Assembly: GCF_016811915.1 (NCBI RefSeq)
Contig: NZ_CP069127.1
Span: 5,342,501 to 5,406,500, forward strand
From: Brevibacillus choshinensis
GTDB taxonomy: Bacteria; Bacillota; Bacilli; Brevibacillales; Brevibacillaceae
Direction of reading: 5' to 3'
DNA length: 64,000 bases
Shown here piece by piece: positions 17,911 through 22,300 of this stretch. Positions within the stretch are counted from its first letter, which is position 1; each line of letters opens with the position of its first letter. The notes beneath the pieces were generated by a model. It ran no database searches. It was not told where the DNA came from and was given only the letters and a program-made list of their open reading frames with translations. The position numbers and the translations under genes are program-made.

Positions 17911-18223
17911 ACCATACACTCCTGCAGAGCACCATTATTTCGCCGCATCTTTCTTCCAAATAAGAATAATAATTGGCAAAATATATTTTACAGAAAAAAC
18001 ACACTAGTTGTATCACTTTTCAGTCATTTTTTATATTTTTTTATTATCGCGTCTAAGTGCCTTCTCTGACGGTTATTTCGAGTATTCCAACCTTTTCGTC
18101 ACTTTTTTGTAACTCGAATCCTGTATGATAAAAGAAAGCGGTTTACTTACATCCTGGCGCTCTGGATTGTTAGCGCTTTCCTTTAGCTTTTTACGTCATT
18201 TTTTCACGGTGGGAGTGATCGAC
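17911..18223. other. AT-rich divergent intergenic region
   Basis: About 313 bases with no gene, containing the promoters of the RND adaptor (reverse) and scoA (forward). A TATGAT -10-like hexamer at 18124-18129 has no good -35. One cre-like sequence is listed separately. No other structure was recognised. Confidence 0.6.
18168..18181 (+). promoter_or_regulatory. cre-like site upstream of scoA
   Basis: TGTTAGCGCTTTCC matches the CcpA consensus TGWAANCGNTNWCA with two mismatches, about 45 bp before the scoA start. Weak candidate. Confidence 0.25.
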
Positions 18224-19779: not shown

Positions 19780-20196
19780 CTAGGCAACAGGTCTGTTCCC
19801 CTGAATTTGGTTCCACATGGTTACCATGTCGATCCAGCCGCGATGCTCCGTGATCAAGCCGTCCGCAACGCGATATTGACGGTAGAGCGTGACATCAATC
19901 TGATTGCCGGTAGGCGCGGTTCCAAAGAACATGCCTTGATGCGTCCCTTTCACTGTCATTCTTACGAGTACTTTATCTCCTTGTCCGATGATCTCCTCTA
20001 CCTCGTAGCGTTTATCGGGAAATGCATCCATGATCTTTGCAGCGAACGTTTTCAGCCCGTCCTTGGACTGGTAAGAGAGCTCTACATAATCATCGGACAG
20101 AAATCGATCTGCACAATCCCACTCACTTCGATTCCAGAATGCCTCGATAAACGCGCTCACTGTTTCCATATTGCTCTGTTCCAGCGATTTCATCAT
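19780..20196 (-). CDS. NTF2-like (SnoaL-type) ester cyclase family protein, paralogue 1
   Basis: A 138-residue single NTF2-like fold. The N-terminal helix MKSLEQSNMETVSAFIEAFWNRSEWD leads to YEVEEIIGQGDKVLVRMTVKGTHQGMFFGTAPTGNQIDVTLYRQYRVADGLITEHRGWID, the SnoaL/polyketide-cyclase pattern. Such domains bind small hydrophobic ligands and may isomerise or hydrolyse them; the specific role is unknown. Three consecutive ATG codons follow GGAG; the middle one is taken. It is the downstream copy of a tandem pair, 57 bases after paralogue 2. Confidence 0.75.
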   Translation of the reverse strand: MMKSLEQSNMETVSAFIEAFWNRSEWDCADRFLSDDYVELSYQSKDGLKTFAAKIMDAFPDKRYEVEEIIGQGDKVLVRMTVKGTHQGMFFGTAPTGNQIDVTLYRQYRVADGLITEHRGWIDMVTMWNQIQGNRPVA

Positions 20197-20253
20197 CATC
20201 CATCTCCTCATGAATTCGTAGCGGGTACAGGACCTAGCGTTTCTTGCGGGAAG

Positions 20254-20601
20254 CTATGAAGCTTGAATTTGAGGGAGGAGCGTGGCCGTATCGAACCAGC
20301 CGCGGTGTTCGGCGATGGTGCCATCAATGACGCGAAATTCACGGAATTGCGTCGCACACACGGCTTTGCCGGTAGGGGCATTTCCTGCAAACTCTCCTGA
20401 ATGGACAGCCGTCATGAAAATTCTCGCGATGACTTTCTCTCCCTGGACCAGGATTTCATCTACCGAATAGCGCCGATCCGTAAATGCAGCTGCGATTTGC
20501 GGGGCAAAAAATTGATCGGTCTGATCCAGAATGCTCTGATTGGCCGCGTCCTCGATAAATCCGGTCACGATTTCCACATTCGCTTGTTCCAGCGTTTTCA
20601 T
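20254..20601 (-). CDS. NTF2-like (SnoaL-type) family protein, paralogue 2
   Basis: A 115-residue paralogue of the gene at 19780, with the same blocks (MKTLEQANVEIVTGFIE; YSVDEILVQGEKVIARIFMTAVHSGEFAGNAPTGK; FREFRVIDGTIAEHRGWFDTATL) but a shorter middle. The first ATG touches the GGGAG, so the ATG at 20599-20601 is used. An operator-like sequence at 20744 matches those at the reductase/ArsR promoter, so this pair may share that control. Its function is unknown. Confidence 0.72.
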   Translation of the reverse strand: MKTLEQANVEIVTGFIEDAANQSILDQTDQFFAPQIAAAFTDRRYSVDEILVQGEKVIARIFMTAVHSGEFAGNAPTGKAVCATQFREFRVIDGTIAEHRGWFDTATLLPQIQAS

Positions 20602-20626
20602 ATGAACCATCTCCCTTTCGTTTTTA

Positions 20627-20743: not shown

Positions 20744-20759
20744 GTTACCTTTTAGTCAC
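20744..20759. promoter_or_regulatory. Operator-like site, third copy of the ArsR-AHSA1 motif
   Basis: Read on the reverse strand, GTGACTAAAAGGTAAC is identical at 14 of 16 positions to the site at 21432-21447. It lies between the reductase stop and the NTF2-like paralogue 2, in its upstream region. Confidence 0.5.
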
Positions 20760-20785
20760 CTTTTAAAGAAAAAAATGAGGCTGCT

Positions 20786-21343
20786 CTATTCGTTTGCCAC
20801 CGTGGCAGTGGCAGCAAGCTTCCGTGTCAGGTTCACGAAGCTGTCGACTCCATTCCGAACCCTGCTGCTCACTTCTTCATCTACTGGTCTGCCATCGGAA
20901 CCAAATGAGTGGGAACCGGATCCGATCGATATCCACTCCGAGCAATTGATTCCGTGCAAATTGCGTACGATCGACTGCAAATGCGTCAGCGAGCTTACCC
21001 CGAGCGGACCGCCTGCGGAGCTTACCGAAAGCACAGCCTTGCCTGCTACCTGGCCTGCGGTTACATAGTCCAAGGCGTTTTTAAGCGCTCCAGATAGGGA
21101 TCCATGGTATTCCGGGGTAGCCAGGATCAATCCGTCCCCATCTGCGATTGCTTCCAATACGTGTCGGACGTTCGGATGAAACTCCCAATTGTCGGGGGAG
21201 AATAGCGGGAGCTGCAGCTGTGCCAAATCGATAAATGCGACCGAAATGTCCTGGGCCTTCAAAAGGCTTTCCACGTACCTCAGAAGGGACGTGCTCGTTG
21301 CGTTTGCGCGGTTGCTTCCCGCGATCAAGGTTACTTTCATCAT
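20786..21343 (-). CDS. NADPH-dependent FMN reductase
   Basis: A 185-residue flavodoxin-like reductase. The FMN phosphate loop is in LIAGSNRANATSTSLLRYV, and the isoalloxazine contact is in ATPEYHGSLSGALKNALDY, typical of the SsuE/azoreductase (YhdA, ArsH-like) group. It probably reduces FMN, azo compounds or quinones with NADPH in the cytoplasm. The start is an ATG pair after AAAGGTG. The promoter TTGACA-N18-TATTAT contains a palindrome filling the spacer. It is divergent from the ArsR-AHSA1 regulator. Confidence 0.85.
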   Translation of the reverse strand: MMKVTLIAGSNRANATSTSLLRYVESLLKAQDISVAFIDLAQLQLPLFSPDNWEFHPNVRHVLEAIADGDGLILATPEYHGSLSGALKNALDYVTAGQVAGKAVLSVSSAGGPLGVSSLTHLQSIVRNLHGINCSEWISIGSGSHSFGSDGRPVDEEVSSRVRNGVDSFVNLTRKLAATATVANE

Positions 21344-21431
21344 AACATCACCTTTCACTTCCAAATGGTTGGCTGTGGCTCGATTGCTCTGCTTGGCCTC
21401 GACTGACAAGAGAATCGGTTTGTGCTAATAT

Positions 21432-21447
21432 GTGACTAATAGGTCAC
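21432..21447. promoter_or_regulatory. Operator-like palindrome (copy 1) in the divergent region
   Basis: GTGAC-TAATAG-GTCAC. It shares the pattern GT.AC.AA...GT.AC with the palindrome at 21465-21484 and lies just past the expected start point of the reductase transcript. Confidence 0.5.
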
Positions 21448-21459
21448 TTGAACAATTTC

Positions 21460-21489
21460 ATAATACGTTACCAAATAGTAACGTGTCAA
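21460..21489 (-). promoter_or_regulatory. Sigma-A promoter of the FMN reductase gene
   Basis: Reverse strand: TTGACA (21489-21484), 18-base spacer, TATTAT (21465-21460). The best promoter match in this region. Confidence 0.7.
21465..21484. promoter_or_regulatory. Operator-like palindrome (copy 2) inside the promoter spacer
   Basis: ACGTTAC-CAAATA-GTAACGT, perfect 7-bp arms, spanning exactly the stretch between the -35 and -10 of the reductase promoter. Binding here would block polymerase. Confidence 0.6.
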
Positions 21490-21535
21490 GGGGTTCTAAA
21501 CCACTTCATCCAATTTTGGGAAGGAGGTGTTTCGC

Positions 21536-22300
21536 TTGGAAAATGACATATTCAAGGCCCTCGCGGATCCCAGCCGCCGCAAGCTTTTGGATCTGCTCCA
21601 CGCCGCAGACGGGCGAACGCTGAATGATCTGTGTGCGCCGCTCGATATGTCCAGATTTGGCGTCATGAAGCATCTGAATATACTCGAAGAAGCCGGACTC
21701 ATCACCACCAGAAAAGTAGGTCGTGAAAAACTGCATTACTTGAACGCCGTGCCTATCCGACAAATTTATGAGCGATGGGTGAGTAAATACGCCGAGCCTT
21801 GGGTGCTCGAATTAACCACTCTTCAAAACGAACTGGAGCGTGAAACGAATATGCAAAACAAGCCCCGCAATGTAAACCGGATTGCCATTAAAGCAAAGCC
21901 TGAACAAGTGTGGCAGGCCATTACGGATCCTGCCAAGACGTCGAAGTTTTGGTTCAATTGCTCCATCCGATCCACCTGGGAAATCGATGCGCCATTCGAG
22001 CTTTGGGGCGAAAATGAGAAGAAAGCGGAAGGAACCATTCTCGACATGGATCCCCCGAATAAACTCGTGATGAGCTGGCGCTTTCTCTCATTCCCGGGCA
22101 CGGAAAGCGATACGATGTCGCGCATTACCTGGGAGATCGGTTCACATGCAGAGTTTCAGGGAGTGACCCTCGTTACGGTCGTGCATGATGAATTCGAACA
22201 GGCTCCAGGCACCGCAGCTATTCTGGAAAACGGCTTGCCGATCGTCCTCTCCGGCATGAAGACGTTTCTGGAGACCGGGGAGATGCTCGCTGAAAAGTAA
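21536..22300 (+). CDS. ArsR-family regulator fused to an AHSA1/SRPBCC domain
   Basis: A 254-residue fusion. Residues 1-90 are an ArsR winged HTH (IFKALADPSRRKLLDLLHAADGRTLNDLCAPLDMSRFGVMKHLNILEEAGLI). Residues about 105-250 are an AHSA1-type START-like barrel (VNRIAIKAKPEQVWQAITDPAKTSKFWFNCSI), which usually forms a hydrophobic ligand cavity. No metal-binding cysteine pair of classical ArsR is seen, so the barrel is the likely sensor. An upstream GTG lies within the AAGGAGGTG site; the TTG at 21536, 6 bases downstream, is the likely start. It is divergent from the FMN reductase, its probable target. Confidence 0.85.
   Translation: MENDIFKALADPSRRKLLDLLHAADGRTLNDLCAPLDMSRFGVMKHLNILEEAGLITTRKVGREKLHYLNAVPIRQIYERWVSKYAEPWVLELTTLQNELERETNMQNKPRNVNRIAIKAKPEQVWQAITDPAKTSKFWFNCSIRSTWEIDAPFELWGENEKKAEGTILDMDPPNKLVMSWRFLSFPGTESDTMSRITWEIGSHAEFQGVTLVTVVHDEFEQAPGTAAILENGLPIVLSGMKTFLETGEMLAEK

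Follow-up and report, generated by a model that had tools for sequence, protein, structure and literature searches.

The palindromic sites that surround an FMN reductase gene in Brevibacillus choshinensis look, on strong support from sequence comparison, like operators of the protein encoded beside them, a fusion of an ArsR-type DNA-binding domain with an AHSA1 domain. We analysed a window of 64,000 nucleotides, in which three sites of the common form GTNAC-N6-GTNAC accompany the genes for this regulator, the reductase and two SnoaL proteins (Table 1). The joint reading of promoter layout, conservation, co-variation with the recognition helix and linked genes makes it probable that the fusion protein is an autoregulated one-component repressor, with operators lodged in promoter spacers, that is released by a ligand in its pocket and governs a response of reduction, modification and export.

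A first-pass annotation had placed three related sites at 20744-20759, 21432-21447 and 21465-21484, and a pattern search recovered all of them, the third at 21467-21482. Their shared form had been read as GT.AC....GT.AC, a gap of four bases that fits none of the three; the correct gap is six. With this gap there are four matches in the window against 0.19 expected, a number reached by none of 100 shuffled sequences. The four-base gap gives one match in the window, at 22163 within the regulator gene (0.25 expected), and was dropped in favour of the six-base form: its match at 42 of 45 Bacillota loci lies inside the regulator gene, not upstream, and overlaps codons of a conserved stretch of the protein. 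The third site is real, but the range assigned to it overran the operator by two bases at each end. Operators 1 and 2 are identical at 14 of 16 positions, as had been stated, when operator 1 is reverse-complemented; a repeat search found no repeats of length 14 or more.

Table 1. Features of the window that bear on the predicted regulon. Figures in brackets after bit scores are cut-offs.
Feature	Position	Strand	Description
Fourth GTNAC-N6-GTNAC match	18098-18113		GTCACTYKTTTGTAACTC; before 3-oxoacid CoA-transferase operon
SnoaL (NTF2-like) protein 2	19780-20211	-	SnoaL 110.3 bits (28.4)
SnoaL (NTF2-like) protein 1	20254-20610	-	SnoaL 67 bits (28.4)
Operator 1	20744-20759	.	GTTACCTTTTAGTCAC; between FMN reductase stop and first SnoaL gene
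NADPH-dependent FMN reductase	20786-21343	-	FMN_red PF03358 109.5 bits (24)
Probable regulator promoter	21403-21431	+	CTGACA-N17-TAATAT, TG before -10; 9/12 consensus
Operator 2	21432-21447	.	GTGACTAATAGGTCAC; directly after probable -10 of regulator, over expected transcription start
FMN reductase promoter	21460-21489	-	TTGACA-N18-TATTAT; 11/12 consensus
Operator 3	21467-21482	.	GTTACCAAATAGTAAC; inside spacer of FMN reductase promoter
ArsR-AHSA1 fused regulator	21536-22300	+	Likely TTG start at 21536

The position of operator 3 relative to its promoter is exact. Together with one base on each side it makes up precisely the 18 bp between TTGACA and TATTAT, in agreement with the original description. 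The promoter assigned to the regulator is weak on its own, the region holding 6 promoter-like sites compared to 2.8 (sd 1.8) in shuffled sequence. Upstream of the regulator gene an in-frame GTG at 21527 overlaps a GGAGG. Operator 1 is found without a clear promoter. The RNA between the FMN reductase gene and operator 1 folds no better than shuffled sequences (z -0.49), so we claim no terminator there. Relatives have the same operator-promoter layout: among 126 sites, with both directions read, there are 55 cases in which TTGAC(A/G) starts exactly 7 bases ahead of the operator.

Conservation was examined in 80 relatives kept of 123, comprising 45 Bacillota and 35 from other phyla, obtained by a pattern-based scan with two peptide patterns. 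One of these patterns contains the recognition helix, so the helix is conserved in this set by selection of the sample and other helix types are under-sampled. The six-base-gap motif occurs within 200 bp upstream of the regulator in 44 of the 45 Bacillota loci and 34 of the 35 others (78/80), counts that carry the caveat of common descent among related intergenic sequences. Other gap lengths (2-5 and 7-10) were each found within the same 200 bp at two loci at most, and remote sequence (over 1 kb away upstream or over 0.8 kb away downstream), in sets of 307 kb and 232 kb, yielded 3 sites each. Position 3 of the half-site, which the search left unconstrained, is G or T in all 144 half-sites (72 distinct sites), and the following base is a pyrimidine in 133 of the 144. 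The motif is conserved with its genes across genera and phyla, whereas a lack of such conservation was one of the two outcomes that the first-pass annotation had named as refuting its proposal.

The two loci lacking a nearby site are L034 and L093. At L034 (3909-4010) a remnant of SnoaL 2 abuts the Paenibacillus macerans regulator, and the locus retains neither an operator nor an FMN reductase match; this would fit deletion of the promoter and operators. At L093 a pair of sites lies farther away, some 780 bp upstream and in front of a different open frame. In seven alphaproteobacterial loci (L079, L085, L091, L093, L094, L102 and L107) two operators abut head to tail with a 16-bp period. The second operator of L079 fills a TTGTCA-TATAAT spacer whose -35 element forms part of the first operator. 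Several of these tandem-operator loci have divergent genes for an MFS transporter or an alpha/beta-hydrolase.

We compared the recognition helix with the operator type in 102 regulators (L027 and L028, which are the same places as L069 and L070, were omitted; L078 has a site, its helix being unparsed). Helices with RFG are accompanied by GTNAC-N6-GTNAC in 80 of 82 cases, and the single RYA helix also has a GT-type site. Helices with RQ(S/G/A) are accompanied by a GT-type site in none of 13 cases and by GCA-N10-TGC in 12. The latter sequence is also found upstream of 5 of the 82 RFG regulators, so the pattern alone is not specific. Neither operator type was found upstream of the four regulators with RTA and the one with RSG.

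A paralogue in the same genome (L017 1460-1500, G000:C1 at about 2.848 Mb) is an unfused ArsR with helix MTRQSVTKHL, followed by an AHSA1 match. Its upstream promoter reads TTGACA-TGCAGTCATTTGGTTGCA-TATAAT, the GCA-type palindrome filling the 18-bp spacer, and the layout is kept in the homologues of G007 (86%) and G001 (78%). Over all loci, under a lenient rule for the -10 element, the 18-bp spacer behind TTGAC(A/G) is occupied by 57 GT-type and 9 GCA-type instances. A tblastn search of plasmids, which was not seeded with the helix, returned 13 relatives, of which 11 were examined (H9 and H13 look like near-duplicates of H8 and H12); one has an RFG helix with a GT-type site, and ten are RQ-type without one. 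Split actinobacterial gene pairs with an RFG helix also have the GT-type operator, indicating that the operator follows the helix and not the fusion. Upstream of two other ArsR-like genes of this genome (L022 and L024), palindromes of the AGGAATATTCC type lie between TTGACA or TTTACA and TATATT; these may represent a third kind of operator arranged in the same way.

The 6.17-Mb genome contains 31 matches to GTNAC-N6-GTNAC. For the strict form GTKACYNWWNRGTMAC there are five: besides the three window sites, an EamA transporter gene at 1.468 Mb, 3.9 Mb from the window on the contig, has two in its promoter; the reversed control gave two. The genome-wide search that had been proposed as a check on the motif thus finds strict sites at two loci only, the window and EamA. 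The EamA promoter has the arrangement TTGACA-C-[operator]-A-TATATT, and another operator follows at a distance of 27 bp. When one mismatch is allowed there is no excess over the control in this genome (16 vs 39), so the genome-wide claim rests on the exact sites. The regulon had been described as compact, which does not hold: the strict motif also stands in this unlinked promoter and, in relatives, before other remote genes. The central part of the proposal, that three operators link the FMN reductase and SnoaL genes with the ArsR-AHSA1 regulator, is strongly supported by conservation across genera and phyla and by the co-variation of operator and helix.

Of 60 genomes searched, four have a regulator match (E 1e-60 or better), that of the window included. 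In the other three (G001, G020 and G011) the regulator is divergent from the EamA gene, with two sites 27 bp apart; the EamA match of G020 is split into two pieces (L069). All four EamA orthologues have the paired sites, and no sites were found at the five other EamA homologues retrieved, among them paralogues in the regulator-bearing genomes G000 and G020. FMN reductase matches within the regulator loci L131-L133 have sites nearby, and a match in G038 (44% identical) has none nearby. Across 26 genomes of the genus, the four with the regulator have 11 strict sites, each located at a regulator or target locus, and the 22 without it have six, one each in six genomes (reversed control 23). In a FastTree phylogeny the window protein nests in a clade of Paenibacillus cassette regulators, apart from the other Brevibacillus-group regulators; support for the nodes nearest to it is modest (0.41-0.88). 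The EamA gene of this genome, in contrast, has its closest relative among those retrieved in G001 (75%). The simplest reading of these sequence relationships is that the genome acquired a cassette regulator, which now acts on the operators of an EamA gene already resident there.

The fourth match in the window was also weighed as a possible regulon member, but we discarded it. Its third position is C, and GTNAC-N6-GTNAC is found before 21 of 28 CoA-transferase loci (L197-L224) in the 26 genomes of the genus, 18 of the 21 being in genomes without the regulator. Its distribution identifies it as a different element, conserved in much of the genus.

The genes linked to the regulator are of consistent types. 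In the 45 Bacillota loci an FMN reductase gene lies on the strand opposite the regulator in 32, SnoaL 1 is present in 29 and SnoaL 2 in 30; arylamine N-acetyltransferase (NAT) and GDSL esterase genes are each found in 5, EamA in 3, an FAD amine-oxidase-like gene in 2, and a nitroreductase with another SnoaL in 3. Among the 24 relatives having both the FMN reductase and SnoaL 1 genes, 15 have a site between the two and 9 do not. Across relatives, sites precede FMN/azoreductase-like, SnoaL, EamA, NAT, nitroreductase, GDSL-esterase and FAD-oxidoreductase genes. The nearest solved relatives of the window's FMN reductase are azoreductases and FMN-dependent quinone reductases, B. subtilis YhdA among them (PDB 7f76, 7bx9, 3gfq, 1nni), the best stretches covering part of the protein only; it falls under the NCBIfam equivalog cut-offs for SsuE (60.5; 164.05), MsuE (45.7; 212.5) and ArsH (33.5; 292.25). 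The combination of reductase, N-acetyltransferase and exporter suggests detoxification of azo, nitro, quinone or aryl-amine compounds.

Similar genes are found at remote sites. In 18 genomes chosen from those of the Bacillota loci, the strict pattern occurs at 56 places compared to 14 for the reversed control. We examined 12 remote regions from 11 genomes (two in G075): seven precede homologues of regulator-linked genes, namely NAT in three (one 37% identical and partial), an FAD oxidoreductase in two, and FMN reductase-SnoaL with a further regulator match in two; the other five have no recognised linked gene. The two with a further regulator (L154 in Paenibacillus sp. P25 and L157 in Shimazuella alba) are in genomes that carry another ArsR-AHSA1 locus, where cross-talk on one operator type is possible.

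In the regulator, a winged helix whose recognition helix is MSRFGVMKHL is joined by a long linker helix to a C-terminal helix-grip domain. The ArsR-type helix-turn-helix (HTH) domain exceeds the cut-offs of HTH_20 (47.5; 27), HTH_5 (30; 22) and NF033788 (61.8; 55), and residues 122-249 match Pfam AHSA1 at 59.1 bits (cut-off 22.1); the protein belongs with ArsR-AHSA1 (COG0640-COG3832) regulators, in which the AHSA1 domain is fused or adjacent. Sequence and conservation also place a palindrome with a 4-base centre, GTKACY-N4-RGTMAC, in its own promoter region. An AF2 model (mean pLDDT 82.1) has the same three parts, but at its pTM of 0.54 the arrangement of the two domains with respect to each other cannot be relied on. 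A search of solved structures by sequence with the whole regulator returned only chains of ArsR domains (11 sequences); the C-terminal domain matched solved structures by fold only, the matches being AHSA1-like structures, including CalU16 and DynU16, with Z of about 15-17. Ligand-responsive regulation is plausible from the presence of this helix-grip domain.

In the mechanism that we propose, the winged helix would bind as a dimer to the GTKACY-N4-RGTMAC palindromes and would repress rather than activate. At the FMN reductase promoter the operator would fill the 18-bp gap between -35 and -10, so that bound repressor should exclude RNA polymerase. Operator 2 would cover the start of the regulator's own transcript, resulting in autoregulation, operator 1 would control the SnoaL genes, and the two further operators of the same layout would control the unlinked EamA exporter. 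A hydrophobic, probably aromatic or quinone-like compound would fill the fused AHSA1 pocket and release the repressor, after which the cell would make enzymes that reduce and modify the compound and the means to export it.

The same regulon and operators could instead respond to electrophiles, quinones or oxidants through modification of Cys36, which lies just before the recognition helix, and not to a ligand in the AHSA1 pocket; we regard this as unlikely, although it is the strongest competitor. Of 42 aligned Bacillota regulators, 41 have Cys36 and 34 have Cys145, several RQ-type ArsRs have a Cys at the same place, and the targets are of FMN reductase and nitroreductase types. Cysteine modification has a precedent in the YodB/QsrR-type sensors: YodB and CatR of Bacillus subtilis and QsrR of Staphylococcus aureus are repressors of azoreductase/nitroreductase-type genes, gene types that resemble those found here, and their inducers are quinones and similar compounds. 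These are DUF24/MarR-type cysteine sensors without an AHSA1 domain, however, and their operators are different. Moreover, position 36 is Glu in 17 of 21 proteobacterial members (including one deltaproteobacterial MAG) and in all four actinobacterial ones, yet the operator is the same, and signalling through Cys36 would leave unexplained why the AHSA1 domain stays fused or adjacent.

Somewhat less probable is that the AHSA1 domain acts as a scavenger or catalyst in the manner of CalC/CalU16, destroying or sequestering the compound, so that induction would follow its consumption and not simple reversible sensing. CalU16 and DynU16, from enediyne clusters, are near the top of the structural neighbours of the domain (Z 15.4 to 16.8). 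The likeness is that of a generic helix-grip at about 20% identity (19-22%), a shared fold shows no function, and unlike the regulator these proteins are not fused to an ArsR domain.

The remaining alternatives are far weaker. Metal-sensing proteins of the ArsR/CadC type have a Cys-pair metal motif near the recognition helix. The NCBIfam name of the regulator is metalloregulator ArsR/SmtB, but in 67 aligned members (of the 80 relatives, after dropping 10 split actinobacterial genes and 3 in which translation from the match start was interrupted) the HTH domain holds the single Cys36 with no second nearby Cys conserved. Other known metal sites are built from His, Asp or Glu; at least 90% of the aligned members have His49, His70 and His220, residues that are scattered. 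No metal gene is among the linked genes scanned, and a metal-responsive regulator is very improbable. It is similarly hard to credit that a different, general regulator uses the palindromes and that descent or chance has placed them beside ArsR-AHSA1 genes: the fourth window site demonstrates that similar palindromes can belong elsewhere, but across phyla a different ArsR recognition helix goes with a different operator sequence, and sister genomes without the regulator have few strict sites (6 in 22). A toxin-antitoxin-like module with ArsR as antitoxin and AHSA1 as toxin was predicted for ArsR-COG3832 pairs by Makarova 2009, which lists these widespread two-gene pairs as a candidate (PMC2701414); we give it hardly any weight here, for a type II system consists of two separate proteins and both domains are here in one open frame and one polypeptide, conserved operators stand at unlinked genes, and a Stenotrophomonas maltophilia COG3832-ArsR toxin candidate was without toxicity in kill-rescue tests (PMC7650669).

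ArsR repressors whose own promoters carry a palindrome are an already known kind of regulator. Rv2034, the ArsR of an ArsR-COG3832 operon in Mycobacterium tuberculosis, represses itself through a footprinted palindrome, CCGTAAGT-N4-ACTTACGG, and its authors conclude that it responds to signals other than metal ions (PMC3338718); the pair Rv2034-Rv2035 (ArsR with COG3832/polyketide_cyc2) is named in PMC3968373. The resemblance to the present system lies in an ArsR protein with an AHSA1-superfamily partner, autorepression (here predicted) and, in the promoter of the ArsR gene itself, a palindrome whose centre is 4 bases long. Unlike here, the two are separate genes, the half-site is different, Rv2034 activates other genes, and the examined portions of PMC3338718 describe no FMN reductase/SnoaL/EamA/NAT regulon. 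PMC2701414 proposes ArsR-COG3832 gene pairs as toxin-antitoxin-like or resistance modules and notes that metal-binding motifs are missing in this ArsR subfamily. Those pairs have the same two domains; in our case the domains are fused, we propose operators and targets, and the evidence points to a repressor, in contrast to the toxin-antitoxin proposal. AHA1 domains in ArsR-family members are mentioned in PMC2577659, and a Frankia survey reports ArsR-AHSA1 operons without a known link (PMC4531530). A full-text literature search, with most subscription journals outside it, found no operator or regulon for fused ArsR-AHSA1 proteins; within the literature searched, the operator, the helix code and the detoxification regulon appear to be new.

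A broader reading, which we advance tentatively and with less than even confidence, is that ArsR-AHSA1 proteins are a cross-phylum family of xenobiotic receptors that couple a START-type pocket to a winged helix and whose spacer operators can be read from the recognition helix (FG or YA specifying GTKACY, and Q(S/G/A) specifying GCA...). In Bacillota they would direct a reduce-acetylate-export programme (azoreductase/nitroreductase, arylamine N-acetyltransferase, EamA) against aromatic toxins, and in this genome a Paenibacillus-type cassette regulator would have taken over the operators of a resident EamA gene whose own regulator is missing.

ArsR-AHSA1 modules are widespread, and both toxin-antitoxin and antibiotic-resistance functions have been considered for them (PMC2701414, PMC7650669). 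The conserved operator, the relationship between helix and operator, and the consistent detoxification-type targets lead to directly testable predictions and make regulons readable from sequence in many genomes. They also suggest that these proteins may be a new source of biosensors for aromatic compounds.
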